DNA from: Gemmatimonadota bacterium
GTDB taxonomy: Bacteria > Gemmatimonadota > Gemmatimonadetes > Longimicrobiales > Gaopeijiaceae
Assembly: GCA_030827315.1 (NCBI GenBank)
Contig: JAURER010000021.1
Span: 1-49,393 of the forward strand
Direction of reading: 5' to 3'
Length of the DNA stretch: 49,393 nt
Under the pieces are notes generated by a model. It was given only the letters and a program-made list of their open reading frames with translations, was not told the origin of the DNA and did no database searches. Shown here piece by piece: positions 19,050 to 30,582 of this stretch. The translations under genes were made by a program, and so were the position numbers. Every line of letters starts with the position of its first letter. Positions within the stretch are counted from its first letter, which is position 1.

Positions 19050-21143
19050 ATGATCAAGGACCTGCTCGATCGGAAGATCGAAAAGCGACCCACGACGCTG
19101 AAATTCGAGGGTCGCATCCTCCATCTGCTCGACGACGCCGACCTGGTGAAGGCGCAGCTGTACGAGGGAAGAAACGTGACGCTGACGCCGGAGCTGAAGG
19201 AACGGCTCCGCGACCAGATCTCGACCGACGAGATCACGCCGGCGTACATCTGCTTCTTTTACGACGAGACGCTGGGCGACTTCCCGTACCTCGGGCTCCG
19301 TACCACGAATCGCTCCACCGGCGAGACCGAGTATCCGGTCCAGCGCAATGCGGTCCGCGACGGGGGCTTCGTCTGCTCCGTGGCCGGCAAGCGGCGCGGC
19401 AAGGGAAGCAGCCGGGAAGCGAGTCCGTACGCGGAGCTCCACGCGGGCATCCAGGTCGTCGTGGCGGAGAGCATCGAGCGGATCTACAACGAGAACTGTC
19501 AGAACCTCGGCGTGCTCACGACGAGCGACTTCTCGATCATCGACCGCATCCTGGCGGGCGAGGAGATCCAGCTTTCCGAGTTCACCGACGGCGCCGACGA
19601 GATCACCCGCCAGATCATCGAGTACGGTGGGCTCTTCGAGTTCAACGTGGCGCGGCTCCAGGGCAAGGTGACGATTCCGGTCACGACGGCCCTCCAGCCG
19701 GGAGCGGCGGACCGGCGCCCCATGACGCTGGCGGAGAAAATCTTCGCGAAGCATCTCGTGACCGACGCGGCCCGGGGTGAGCTGGGGGTCCCGTGGGTGG
19801 AGCCTGGCGACGCCGGCTTCTTTCGCACGGATATCCGTTTCAGCCACGAGTACGTCACGCCAATGGCCTCGATCTTCTTCGAGGACAAGGTCGGCGCCGA
19901 CGCGAAGGTGGTGGACGCGGACTCGATCCTCTTCTTCCGCGACCATCTGACCTTCCTCGACAAGGTCATGAGCCAGGAGCGCATCGAGCAGGGTCTGCTC
20001 GACGTCGCGAACGAGCTGGAGGTCAAGCAGCGCACCTTCTCCGAGAAGCAGGGCGTGAAGCTCTACGGGGAGCAGATGGGCCACAGGCTCGGATCGCAGG
20101 CCATCTGTCACTCCAAGATCCTGGAGGAGTACGCCGAGCCCGGGATGCTCATCATCGGAACGGACTCCCACACGCCCCACGCCGGAGCGATCGGCGCCGT
20201 GGCCTTCGGCGTCGGGACGACGGCGATCTTCAACTCCTGGATCACCAAGGACGTGCGCGTCCAGGTGCCAAAGTCGTTCAAGGTCGTCATCACCGGCACG
20301 CCCGCGGCCAACGTGACGGCGAAGGACTACATGCTCGAGATCCTGCGCCACCCCTACATCCGGGACGGCGAGGCCATCGGTCAGATCATCGAGTATGCCG
20401 GTCCGGCCGTGGAGGCCCTCGGCGTGGACGAGCGGGCGACGATGACGAACATGGCGGCCGAGGTCGGGGCCTTCACCGGCATCATCGCGGCGGACCGGAA
20501 ATCCGTTGAGTTCATGGTGAACGAGCGCGGCATGGACCGGGCTCGCGCCGAGGAGCTGGTGGTGGGGATGCAGTCCGACCCCGGCGCGGAGTACGTGAAG
20601 GTCATCGAGATCGACGCGTCGGCCATCCGGCCCATGGCCGCCCTCCCCAACGATCCGGGCAACGGAGTCTTCATCGACGAGCTGGGCGACGCGCCCATCC
20701 GCATCGACATCGCCTACGCCGGATCCTGCACGGCGGGCAAGAAGGAAGACATGGACATGTACGCCCGCGTCTTCGCCGAAGCCGATGCCCAGGGCCTGAA
20801 GATCCACCCCGACGTGAAGGCGTACATCCAGTGCGGCTCCACGGAGGTCCGGGAGTACTGCCGGGAGCGTGGCTACCTCGAACTGTTCGAGCGGATGGGC
20901 GCGGAGTTCATCGAGCCCGGATGCGGTGCCTGCATCGCGGCGGGGCCGGGTGTGACGAGCTCACCCGACGAGGTCTCGATCTCGTCGCAGAACCGAAACT
21001 TCCCCGGCCGCTCCGGCCCCGGCAACCTGTACCTCGGGTCGCCGTACTCCGTGGCGGCCAGCGCCGTCGCGGGATACGTGACGAGCTGGACGCCGGGCCA
21101 GCAATTCGACCAGCTGTCGGCGCGGAAGCTCGCGACGGTCTGA
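19050..21143 (+). CDS. Aconitase-family hydratase with the swivel domain at the N terminus
   Basis: A 697-residue iron-sulfur hydro-lyase. The first 215 residues look like the small (swivel, LeuD-like) part: STDEITPA, then GKGSSREASPYAEL, the loop that contacts substrate in isopropylmalate isomerases. The LeuC-like catalytic part begins at MTLAEKIFAKHLV and carries GTDSHTPHAGAIGAVAFGVG. Three Cys can hold the [4Fe-4S] cluster: Cys560 in YAGSCTAG, and Cys625 and Cys628 in PGCGACIAAG. AcnA has the swivel last; AcnB has it early but after a HEAT domain that is absent here. No leuA or leuB is nearby, so citrate/isocitrate isomerisation is more likely than leucine synthesis, but both remain possible. 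The start has GAAAGGA upstream. Confidence 0.88.
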   Translation: MIKDLLDRKIEKRPTTLKFEGRILHLLDDADLVKAQLYEGRNVTLTPELKERLRDQISTDEITPAYICFFYDETLGDFPYLGLRTTNRSTGETEYPVQRNAVRDGGFVCSVAGKRRGKGSSREASPYAELHAGIQVVVAESIERIYNENCQNLGVLTTSDFSIIDRILAGEEIQLSEFTDGADEITRQIIEYGGLFEFNVARLQGKVTIPVTTALQPGAADRRPMTLAEKIFAKHLVTDAARGELGVPWVEPGDAGFFRTDIRFSHEYVTPMASIFFEDKVGADAKVVDADSILFFRDHLTFLDKVMSQERIEQGLLDVANELEVKQRTFSEKQGVKLYGEQMGHRLGSQAICHSKILEEYAEPGMLIIGTDSHTPHAGAIGAVAFGVGTTAIFNSWITKDVRVQVPKSFKVVITGTPAANVTAKDYMLEILRHPYIRDGEAIGQIIEYAGPAVEALGVDERATMTNMAAEVGAFTGIIAADRKSVEFMVNERGMDRARAEELVVGMQSDPGAEYVKVIEIDASAIRPMAALPNDPGNGVFIDELGDAPIRIDIAYAGSCTAGKKEDMDMYARVFAEADAQGLKIHPDVKAYIQCGSTEVREYCRERGYLELFERMGAEFIEPGCGACIAAGPGVTSSPDEVSISSQNRNFPGRSGPGNLYLGSPYSVAASAVAGYVTSWTPGQQFDQLSARKLATV

Positions 21144-26752: not shown

Positions 26753-27652
26753 GTGCCGCACGTACCGCTCTTCCAGCCCGACCCCCGGCTCTTCCCGTTC
26801 CGGTCCCGCTGGTTCGAGAGCCGGGTCGGCCCCGTCCACTACCTGGACGAGGGTGTCGGAGAGCCGATTCTCTTCCTGCACGGCAACCCGACGTGGAGCT
26901 TCCTGTATCGCGGCATCGTCATCCGGCTCCGGAAACGCTTCCGGTGCATCGCACTCGACTATCCGGGCTTCGGCCTTTCCGTGCGACCCACGTCGGGGTA
27001 CGAGTACACGCCGGGCGAACACGCCGGAATCGTCCGCGATCTCGTGCAGCACCTCGATCTGAAGGGGCTGACGGTGATGGGGCAGGAGTGGGGCGGCCCG
27101 ATCGGCCTGCGCGTGGCAGCCGACGAGCTCGCCCGCGTTCGTGCCCTCGTCATGGGCAACACGTGGTTCTGGCCGCTCGACTCCATTCAGGGCAAGGCGT
27201 TCGCGTATCTCACGTCGATGGCGCCGATGCAGTCGCAGATCGTCAACCGCAATCTGCTCGTCGAGAAGGTGATGCCCCTCGGCGCGAAGTTTCCTTTCCC
27301 TGAGGAAGTGATGCACCAGTACCGGGAGGCGATGCCCACGCCGGGCAGTCGGATGGGCGCCGCGGAACTCGCCGCGCAGCTCACAAGCGCGACCCGGTGG
27401 CTCGCCCAGCTCGAGGCCGACGTCCGCGGCCGACTCGTGAACGTGCCCCTGCTGCTCACCTGGGGCCTGCACGACCTCATGTACACGCGCCCGTTCATGG
27501 AGCGGTTCCGCGACACCTTCCGGCAGGTGCGGGTCCAGAGACTCGACGCGAAGCACTACATCCAGGAAGACGCCCCGAAGGAGATCTCCGCCGCCATCGA
27601 GGAATTCCTGACATCCCCGCCGTCGTTCGCGGGCGGAGCGACCGGAGCGTGA
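26753..27652 (+). CDS. Haloalkane-dehalogenase-like alpha/beta hydrolase with Glu at the nucleophile
   Basis: A 299-residue alpha/beta hydrolase closest to haloalkane dehalogenases, which split carbon-halogen bonds using water. HGNPTWSF (43-50) is the oxyanion-hole and halide-binding loop, DYPGFGLS follows, and NTWFWP supplies aromatic residues of the halide pocket. The general-acid region has GLHD, and the catalytic base is His268 in DAKHYIQED. The nucleophile elbow reads MGQEWGGPIG: Glu112 sits where the family has Asp (QDWGG). Trp113 next to it is kept. The codon is GAG, one base from Asp. The start is GTG at 26753 with no strong ribosome-binding site. The TGA overlaps the crcB start as GTGA, so fluoride export and this enzyme are made together. 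Alternative roles are an esterase-like or inactive relative. Confidence 0.82.
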   Translation: MPHVPLFQPDPRLFPFRSRWFESRVGPVHYLDEGVGEPILFLHGNPTWSFLYRGIVIRLRKRFRCIALDYPGFGLSVRPTSGYEYTPGEHAGIVRDLVQHLDLKGLTVMGQEWGGPIGLRVAADELARVRALVMGNTWFWPLDSIQGKAFAYLTSMAPMQSQIVNRNLLVEKVMPLGAKFPFPEEVMHQYREAMPTPGSRMGAAELAAQLTSATRWLAQLEADVRGRLVNVPLLLTWGLHDLMYTRPFMERFRDTFRQVRVQRLDAKHYIQEDAPKEISAAIEEFLTSPPSFAGGATGA

Positions 27653-28029
27653 TCCCACTGGTCGTCGGCGTCGGCGGCGCGCTCGGCGCCGTGGCGCGCT
27701 GGTACGTGACCGACTGGATCCGTCACCTCGCGGGTGCGCAGATCCCCTGGGGCACCATGGCGGTGAATGTGCTCGGCTCGCTGGCGCTCGGCTTCCTGAT
27801 GGTGTGGCTGCAGGCGCGCGCGCCCTCCGCCCAGATCCGCGAGCTGATCGGTGTCGGCTTCCTGGGCTCCTTCACGACCTTCAGCACCTACAGCTACGAG
27901 ACCGTGGCCCTGGTGCGCGCGGGAGAAGTCTGGCGAGCCGGCGGGTACGCGCTGGGCTCGCTGGCACTCGGAATCGTCGCGGTGCTCGCTGGCGCCCTCC
28001 TGGCAACGGCGTTGTTCGCCCGTAGCTGA
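27649..28029 (+). CDS. crcB: Fluoride channel CrcB/Fluc
   Basis: A 126-residue membrane protein of four helices that works as an antiparallel dimer and lets fluoride leave the cell. The family marks are GGALGAVARWYV at the start, AVNVLGSLALGF with the conserved Asn in helix 2, and GFLGSFTTFSTYSYE, the broken helix 3 with the sodium site and the Phe residues lining the fluoride path. The GTG overlaps the dehalogenase stop by four bases (GTGA), which implies coupled translation. I saw no fluoride riboswitch upstream of the pair. A frame open to 27397 is out-of-frame sequence within the hydrolase and is not part of the gene. Confidence 0.93.
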   Translation: MIPLVVGVGGALGAVARWYVTDWIRHLAGAQIPWGTMAVNVLGSLALGFLMVWLQARAPSAQIRELIGVGFLGSFTTFSTYSYETVALVRAGEVWRAGGYALGSLALGIVAVLAGALLATALFARS

Positions 28030-28072
28030 CGACGTGCACAAGCGACGCTCCACGGTTTCGAACGCCCTCACC

Positions 28073-30259
28073 ATGAACGCCGCCGTCCCGGCCTGCCCCG
28101 TGAACCGTCGCGGACGCCGCTTCGCCTCCCCGGTCTTCGTCACCGCAGCGCTCGTCCTCCTCGCGCCGGCCAGCGGAGCTGCACAGTCCGTGTGGGTGCG
28201 GACGCTCGGCCCGGCAGGTCCGCTGGAGGGGACCCGGGTCGAGGCGTCCGGACAGAGAGTGCTGACGGACAGCGCCGGCATGGCCCGCCTCCGCCTTCCG
28301 CTCGGGACCCATACCGTCACGGCCACGCGCATTGGCTTCGCCACCGAGTCGATGGAGGTGGTCCTGTCCCAGACCGGAGACACGACCCTGGTGATCCGGA
28401 TGCGGGAAGAAGCCATCGAAGGCGAGGAGATCGTGGTGACCTCGACGAGAAGTGAGCGGCGCATCGAGGAGGAGCCGATTCGCATCGAAGTGGTGTCCCG
28501 CGAGGAAGTGGAGGAGAAGGTCCTCATGACGCCGGGCGACATCTCCATGCTCCTGAACGAAACCTCGGGGCTCCGGGTGCAGCCGACGGCGCCTTCCCTC
28601 GGAGGCGCGAGCGTACGGATCCAGGGCCTGCGGGGCCGTTACACGCAGATCCTGTCCGACGGCCTGCCGCTCTACGGGGGCCAGGCCGGTGCCCTGGGTC
28701 CACTGCAGGTGCCCCCCATGGACCTCGCGCAGGTGGAAGTCATCAAGGGTGCCGCGTCGGCTCTGTACGGCCCAACGGCGCTGGGCGGAGTGGTGAACCT
28801 GATCTCGCGGCGGCCCGAGCCGGCGCGCGAGCTGTTGCTCAATCAGAGCACGCTCGATGGCACGGACCTGGTGGGATGGCTGGCCGATGAAGTGGGGGAA
28901 CGCTGGGGTTACACATTGCTGGCCAGCGCCCATCGGCAGGACTTTGCCGACGTGGACGCCGACGGCTGGGCCGACGTTCCCCGGTTCCAGCGCCTGTCGG
29001 TCCGCCCCAGGCTCTTCTGGAACGATGACCGTGGCACCTCCGTGATGGCCACGGTCGGCGGGATGACGGAGGACCGCACCGGGGGTACCCTGCCCGAGCG
29101 CGTGACCCCGGAAGGCCTGCCTTTCACCGAGTCTCTGGACACCCGTCGCTTCGACGGAGGATTACGGGTCCGCCGGTTGCTCGGAAGCAGCCGCGTCCTC
29201 ACCGCGCGCGCCTCGGGTTTCGTCCAGGGCCACGAGCATCGCTACGGATCCACGGTGGAGGACGACGAGCACCGGACGGGCTTCGCCGAGCTCGCTCTGT
29301 CCGGTCACGACGGCCGCCACCTCTGGGTGCTCGGGCTGGCATTTCAGCACGACGCCTACGAGAACGCCGGCCTCCCGGCTTTCGACTTCGCCTACAGGGT
29401 CCCGTCCGTATTCGCCCAGGACGAACTCGCCCTGTCCGGATGGCTCACGGTCGCGGGCAGCGTCCGATGGGATCAGCACAACCGGTTCGGCGGTGCTCTC
29501 AGTCCACGCCTCTCCTTCCTGGCCCGCACCGGAGAGTGGACCACCCGCCTCTCGGGTGGCACGGGCTTCTTCGCCCCGACCCCCTTCACCGAGGAGACCG
29601 AGGCGGTGGGGTTGAGCCGGGTGACCGCCCCCGCGGGGTGGACTCGCGAGGAGGCCCGGAGCGGTATGATCGACGTGGGCCGGCAGATCGGTCCCGTCGA
29701 GTTCAACGTGAGCGCCTTCACATCTCTCATCGACGCCCCCCTTCAGACGGTCCGGAGCGACAGCGGGCTCCTCACCGTCCGAAACGGCGACGATCGCGTC
29801 CACACGTGGGGGACGGAGGTCTTCGCGGCGCTTCGCACCGGACCATGGCGACTCGTCGGCTCGCACAGCTATCTGCGGTCCACCGAGCCGGACCCGGGCG
29901 ACACGGCACGCCGCGAGGTCCCCCTCACGCCCCGCCACTCGGCTGGCCTCATCGGCGCCTACGAGCAGGAGGGCCGGGGCCGAGTCGGGATCGAGGCATA
30001 CTACACCGGGCGGCAGGAGCTCGACGACGACCCGTACCGGGACGCGTCGCGGCGTCACTTCATCCTCGGCTTCCTCGTGGACCGCAGGCTGGGCCGCTTC
30101 CGGGTCTTCCTGAACGCCGAAAACGTCCTGGATACCCGCCAGACGCGCTGGGCGCCGCTCGTCCGTCCGGGTCGCACACCGGACGGCCGCTGGCTGACCG
30201 ACGTGTGGGCTCCGCTGGAAGGGCGGGCCTTCAACGCCGGGATCTGGCTCAGCCTCTGA
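28073..30259 (+). CDS. TonB-dependent outer-membrane receptor
   Basis: A 728-residue receptor. After a signal peptide ending APASGAAQS comes a carboxypeptidase-regulatory-like domain (LPLGTHTVTATRIGFATES), then a TonB-box-like EEIVVTSTRSERR and the plug (RIQGLRGRYTQILSDGLPLYGG, QVEVIKGAASALYGPTALGGVVNLISRRP). The barrel runs to AFNAGIWLSL with a terminal Leu. The plug motifs are closest to BtuB/FepA-like or metal/siderophore receptors, but the ligand cannot be named. The ATG at 28073 lies 43 bases after crcB on the same strand, so it may be the third gene of that transcript; an in-frame GTG at 28034 is an alternative. Neither has a clear ribosome-binding site. Confidence 0.88.
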   Translation: MNAAVPACPVNRRGRRFASPVFVTAALVLLAPASGAAQSVWVRTLGPAGPLEGTRVEASGQRVLTDSAGMARLRLPLGTHTVTATRIGFATESMEVVLSQTGDTTLVIRMREEAIEGEEIVVTSTRSERRIEEEPIRIEVVSREEVEEKVLMTPGDISMLLNETSGLRVQPTAPSLGGASVRIQGLRGRYTQILSDGLPLYGGQAGALGPLQVPPMDLAQVEVIKGAASALYGPTALGGVVNLISRRPEPARELLLNQSTLDGTDLVGWLADEVGERWGYTLLASAHRQDFADVDADGWADVPRFQRLSVRPRLFWNDDRGTSVMATVGGMTEDRTGGTLPERVTPEGLPFTESLDTRRFDGGLRVRRLLGSSRVLTARASGFVQGHEHRYGSTVEDDEHRTGFAELALSGHDGRHLWVLGLAFQHDAYENAGLPAFDFAYRVPSVFAQDELALSGWLTVAGSVRWDQHNRFGGALSPRLSFLARTGEWTTRLSGGTGFFAPTPFTEETEAVGLSRVTAPAGWTREEARSGMIDVGRQIGPVEFNVSAFTSLIDAPLQTVRSDSGLLTVRNGDDRVHTWGTEVFAALRTGPWRLVGSHSYLRSTEPDPGDTARREVPLTPRHSAGLIGAYEQEGRGRVGIEAYYTGRQELDDDPYRDASRRHFILGFLVDRRLGRFRVFLNAENVLDTRQTRWAPLVRPGRTPDGRWLTDVWAPLEGRAFNAGIWLSL

Positions 30260-30387: not shown

Positions 30388-30460
30388 TGGTCGCTGCAGG
30401 ACTCGAACCTGCGACATCTACGATGTGAACGTAGCGCTCTACCAGCTGAGCTAAGCGACC
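30388..30460 (-). tRNA. tRNA-Val (anticodon CAC)
   Basis: Reading the minus strand, the acceptor GGTCGCT pairs with AGCGACC. The D arm is GCTC..GAGC, the anticodon stem is CTACG/CGTAG around the loop TTCACAT, giving CAC, and the T arm is GCAGG/CCTGC around TTCGAGT. The discriminator is A. The CCA end is not encoded (TTG follows). It reads GUG, a common valine codon in this GC-rich DNA. It lies 49 bases downstream of tRNA-Glu on the same strand. Confidence 0.95.
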
Positions 30461-30509
30461 GTTCCAGACGTTCGAGGTCCGGGCTTTCGCCCGGACCCCT
30501 TCGCGTCCA

Positions 30510-30582
30510 TACCCCCACGGGGACTCGAACCCCGGTCTACGCCGTGAGAGGGCGTTATCCTAGGCCACTAGACGATGGGGGC
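30510..30582 (-). tRNA. tRNA-Glu (anticodon CTC)
   Basis: On the minus strand the acceptor GCCCCCA pairs with TGGGGGT, with a G-U at the first pair. The anticodon stem ACGCC/GGCGT encloses CTCTCAC, giving CTC, and the T stem is CGGGG/CCCCG around TTCGAGT. The discriminator is A, and CCA is not encoded. The isoacceptor reads GAG only; a UUC-type tRNA-Glu must lie elsewhere. It is the first of a two-tRNA unit behind a promoter at 30614-30642. Confidence 0.93.

Follow-up and report, generated by a model that had tools for sequence, protein, structure and literature searches.

An HLD-III-like hydrolase gene overlapping crcB: a conserved but not obligate gene pair in one family of uncultivated Gemmatimonadota

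There is, to our knowledge, no agreed natural role for the HLD-III enzymes. The dehalogenase activity of HLD-III members is low, and OleB, a putative member of the group, has a different function (PMC10503415). Fluc channels, encoded by crcB, exhibit high selectivity for fluoride and are not known to serve any other purpose, and approximately 15% of them are under the control of riboswitches (PMC11139923); an earlier note on this DNA held that crcB is usually alone or under a fluoride riboswitch, and the riboswitch part of that statement is too strong given this proportion. In Caballeronia sp. S22, a fluoroacetate degrader, the gene for a fluoroacetate dehalogenase (FAcD) adjoins crcB (PMC11812338). 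Given this published adjacency, the earlier note's view that such pairings are not standard holds only in part. The fluoride pocket of RPA1163 is composed of His155, Trp156 and Tyr219 (PMC6100074, PMC11022551).

The window analysed here is a stretch of 49,393 nucleotides from a Gemmatimonadota genome, in which a hydrolase gene is directly followed by crcB on the forward strand. The features of this pair, including the active site positions of the hydrolase, are as follows.

26753-27652, + strand: HLD-III-like alpha/beta hydrolase; ORF with a GTG start, 299 aa, family assigned by sequence and fold.
26885-26887, + strand: Asn45, halide-binding Asn position (DhmeA N63); alignment with DhmeA and relatives, pentad according to PMC10503415.
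27086-27088, + strand: Glu112 (GAG), nucleophilic Asp position (DhmeA D129); alignment and codon check.
27089-27091, + strand: Trp113, halide-binding Trp position (DhmeA W130); alignment, pentad according to PMC10503415.
27473-27475, + strand: Asp241, catalytic acid position (DhmeA D258); alignment, pentad according to PMC10503415.
27554-27556, + strand: His268, catalytic base position (DhmeA H286); alignment, pentad according to PMC10503415.
27649-27652, + strand: GTGA stop/start overlap of the hydrolase gene and crcB; ORF coordinates, with a similar junction in relatives.
27649-28029, + strand: crcB, predicted Fluc fluoride channel; GTG start, 126 aa, matching Pfam CRCB and TIGR00494.

The ORF coordinates confirm the 4-nt GTGA overlap at 27649-27652 that the earlier note had described, and its identification of a haloalkane-dehalogenase-like hydrolase beside crcB is upheld by profile, sequence and fold matches, from which both families are predicted. 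The overlap would permit translational coupling, and the two products could then be synthesized in fixed proportion. A TonB-dependent receptor gene (28034-30259) begins approximately 4 nt past the crcB stop, though its start is uncertain, and was not called 3' of crcB among the listed neighbours of the relatives. A tRNA gene pair is located at 30388-30582; throughout the family such a pair is found again close to crcB, whether the hydrolase is present or not.

The hydrolase matches Abhydrolase_1 in a profile search, and among the NCBIfam models PRK03204 'haloalkane dehalogenase' scores highest, with 307.7 bits, under the equivalog cut-off of 466. The top phmmer match among solved structures is the HLD-III enzyme DhmeA (E 6.5e-52). 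DhmeA is also the nearest solved structure in a fold search with an AlphaFold model of moderate confidence (mean pLDDT 71, alignment of 11 rows), the position of HLD-III as nearest by fold resting on the first 12 Foldseek matches. The nearest relatives by both sequence and fold are thus those of HLD-III, and the halide-binding Asn, the acid Asp after strand 7 and the base His of this group are present (N45, D241, H268). The nucleophilic Asp followed by Trp is found in the clade, with Asp-Trp in the relatives checked, and is Glu112-Trp113 in the window copy. The window hydrolase is described here as HLD-III-like, and halide release from haloalkanes by it would be a putative activity. Identity as a FAcD was rejected owing to the absence of the HDRGxR nucleophile motif, a query that matches FAcDs in the PDB; the corresponding residues are QEWGGP in the window and QDWGGP or HDWGGP in relatives. 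With regard to an OleB-type beta-lactone decarboxylase, the neighbours listed, not all of which are annotated, include no gene identified as ole.

The codon for the nucleophile is GAC or GAT (Asp) in all 24 relatives checked and GAG (Glu112) in the window genome alone, a substitution that the earlier note had overlooked. Of the alignment columns in which the 27 other clade members do not vary, residue 112 is the only one broken by the window copy, so the rest of the hydrolase shows no decay. The GAG codon could be a single-base consensus error of the draft assembly. Taken as read, Glu112 has probably impaired or altered this copy, and release of fluoride by it is unlikely because the needed nucleophilic Asp has been lost. 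The literature search found no relevant paper on an Asp-to-Glu HLD mutant.

The crcB product is predicted to be a housekeeping Fluc fluoride channel. It exceeds the curated cut-offs of Pfam CRCB (PF02537; 104.1 vs 32.9 bits) and of TIGR00494 (106.2 vs 80.45 bits, full-length match), and is the sole PF02537 match that the window genome yielded. At residue 81 it has Tyr (TTFSTYSYE, 27889-27891), a position at which each of the 32 further CrcB sequences of the family in the alignment has Phe. Searches with Rfam at the gathering cut-off covered the window, 18 paired loci (the G059 stub described below included) and 19 further loci with crcB or the hydrolase, and found no fluoride riboswitch.

Conservation of the pair was followed through 121 genomes of one family of uncultivated Gemmatimonadota, 29 of which contain the hydrolase clade, one as a partial copy at a contig edge. 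The adjacency proved to be conserved in related genomes: a paired subclade of 19 genomes from 7 genera, the window included, has the hydrolase stop within 1 nt of the crcB start in every member (19/19), with a 4-nt GTGA or ATGA overlap in 14 of them. This pairing exceeds chance. One of the 19, G059 (L142), encodes an intact overlapping hydrolase and a crcB stub of approximately 10 codons, with the tRNA pair directly after. The crcB of G061 (L039) reads in two frames, reflecting either a one-base frameshift or an assembly error, and that of G141 runs off the contig. In the hydrolase tree, the paired subclade forms one side of a branch with a support of 93/93, so a single origin of the pairing suffices. 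The overlap, the single origin and the retention within one Gemmatimonadota family show the pair to be real, and it is best read as vertically inherited.

The genes 5' of the hydrolase and the gene 3' of crcB differ between genera (OmpA-like, prfC and others, with DUF190 in several). A DUF190 gene follows crcB on its 3' side in G149, G148, G135 and G129 (L146, L153, L041 and L121, respectively) and G117 and G084 also have one adjacent to crcB; in the window genome no such gene was found. In G143 the pair adjoins prfC and the aconitase-like gene considered below sits on another contig, and the pair has moved as a unit in at least one genome. Outside Gemmatimonadota, no crcB was found in the flanking DNA available, up to 5 kb on each side of the hydrolase relatives (38-53% identity), and 21 loci exhibited no conserved hydrolase neighbours apart from a transcription-regulator-like gene in three actinobacterial loci.

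Neither the hydrolase nor crcB needs the other, and the pairing is conserved rather than obligate. In four relatives the hydrolase remains although crcB is no longer intact, namely in G059 with its stub and in G121, G082 and G116 with remnants (L135, L136 and L137, respectively) that lie next to an intact hydrolase gene and are convergent to it; in two cases the remnant is joined to a DUF190-like tail. In the sister lineages, which include these last three genomes, crcB is otherwise convergent at a distance of approximately 450 bp (G117) or 2.7 kb (G084), or is located elsewhere in the genome (G032, G075, G111, G112). G096 and G139, which belong to the window's own genus, contain crcB without the hydrolase; this crcB nests with the paired crcB, so the hydrolase was probably lost there, with all gene losses being read from draft MAGs. 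Across the family, crcB is present in 25 of the 29 hydrolase-clade genomes vs 25 of the remaining 92 (Fisher p 3e-8), and co-occurrence counted by genus gives p 0.03, both values uncorrected for kinship. Replacement of Fluc by a CLC protein was also considered. Among ten genomes tested, CLC was found in only the four without an intact crcB, but this candidate was rejected since family-wide it also occurs in crcB-bearing genomes. In three of the four, the CLC contains the canonical GSGGSVGREGP motif and long C-terminal parts, and its length and domain make-up suggest that it is not CLC-F.

The explanation preferred here, held to be somewhat more probable than its competitors combined, is that the HLD-III-like hydrolase and a housekeeping Fluc form a co-expression unit, tied together by expression and by place on the chromosome and not by a shared substrate. 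The two proteins would probably be translated from one message, with the riboswitch-free crcB gaining steady expression from the overlapping upstream cistron, and the hydrolase would most likely act on some non-fluorinated substrate, given the low dehalogenase activity for which the HLD-III group is known. The junctions of at most 1 nt in 19/19 genomes, the 93/93 origin, the varying flanks, the lack of a riboswitch, the decoupled relatives and the aconitase-like landmark all favour co-expression, and the higher frequency of crcB in hydrolase-clade genomes (25/29 vs 25/92) speaks against it. The landmark, at 19050-21143 in the window, has a swapped domain order with the swivel domain first and the catalytic domain second. 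It is found in 84 of the 121 family genomes, most of them without the hydrolase, and was rejected for this reason as a clue to fluoroacetate tolerance, a clue weakened further by another aconitase-family match on a different contig of the window genome. The hydrolase lies directly 3' of the aconitase-like gene in G129, G121 and G084, the order in G129 being aconitase-like gene, hydrolase, crcB and DUF190, and the aconitase-like gene, crcB and the tRNA pair are near each other without any hydrolase in G096, G139 and G122, so the locus is partly a matter of synteny. Both arrangements would be expected if the hydrolase sat between the aconitase-like gene and crcB simply by descent, with an overlap of no consequence, but this plain chromosomal synteny is judged unlikely: G143, G135 and G134 have the two genes joined although their aconitase-like gene is missing from the upstream side or sits on a different contig, and the pair likewise persists despite differing flanks and with the stop/start spacing kept in 19/19. 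A pair that outlasts changes on both flanks could also be explained by selection on a shared role. The hydrolase might, for example, aid fluoride tolerance by clearing a metabolite that accumulates under fluoride inhibition and hence share its regulation with crcB, and the DUF190 gene after crcB in G149, G148, G135 and G129 would then point to a possible wider fluoride-related unit. The retention of the hydrolase where crcB is gone, the lack of a candidate substrate and the lack of a riboswitch make such a role quite improbable.

A shared role of another kind was raised by the earlier note, which linked the pair to defluorination. The clade enzyme would be a hydrolytic defluorinase cleaving the C-F bond of some organofluorine, with the coupled Fluc exporting the resulting fluoride. 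The conserved overlap of single origin, the co-occurrence of the two genes, the fluoride selectivity of a channel without other known role (PMC11139923) and the published FAcD gene adjoining crcB in a fluoroacetate degrader (PMC11812338) are all consistent with it. The hydrolase, however, lacks the FAcD signature HDRGxR and, in the window copy, the Asp nucleophile; it persists without an intact crcB in four relatives, whose kind of CLC is shared by genomes with crcB, and crcB in turn persists without it in two genomes of the window's genus; synteny of the locus does not depend on it; and outside the phylum its relatives are not accompanied by crcB. The proposed link was not borne out on these points, and defluorination by this clade, while possible, is not supported and is considered very unlikely. 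Less probable still, and given hardly any weight, is that an HLD-III-like clade evolved C-F hydrolysis outside the FAcD group, became locked to Fluc by the overlap and in one lineage adopted a Glu nucleophile.

The co-expression unit preferred above joins two families that are already known, and the overlapping HLD-III-crcB unit is absent from the literature searched: titles and abstracts of open-licence papers (crcB with haloalkane dehalogenase; Gemmatimonadota with dehalogenase and fluoride) contained no report of a conserved overlap. The unit is a testable genomic clue to the natural role of HLD-III enzymes, and the natural change from Asp to Glu, in an enzyme that is well conserved apart from it, offers a ready test of Glu as a nucleophile in this fold. 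It is plain from the decoupled relatives that a gene pair by itself should not be taken as evidence for defluorination.

When compared with the Caballeronia sp. S22 cluster, the window likewise has an alpha/beta-hydrolase dehalogenase-type gene beside crcB, but the S22 enzyme belongs to a different subfamily, the fluoroacetate dehalogenases, with an HDRGxR motif that the window hydrolase does not contain. No aconitate methyltransferase or fluoroacetyl-CoA thioesterase, in contrast to that cluster, was noticed among the neighbours listed, some of which are without annotation. Relative to Fluc/CrcB proteins (TIGR00494, PF02537), the window crcB product is a full-length match over both curated cut-offs, and its gene differs in the overlap with an upstream hydrolase gene and in that no riboswitch was found. 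The closest counterpart of the hydrolase is DhmeA of Haloferax mediterranei (PDB 8ckp, 8ooh), which is alike in fold and sequence with 34-35% identity in the fold match. Within the HLD-III group compared (DhmeA, DmbC, DrbA and DmrB), four positions of the pentad (Asn, Trp, acid and base) are common to both the group and the hydrolase, and Glu at the nucleophile position is confined to the window copy. The HLD-III relatives outside the phylum are found without a nearby crcB, whereas the clade of the window is coupled to it.
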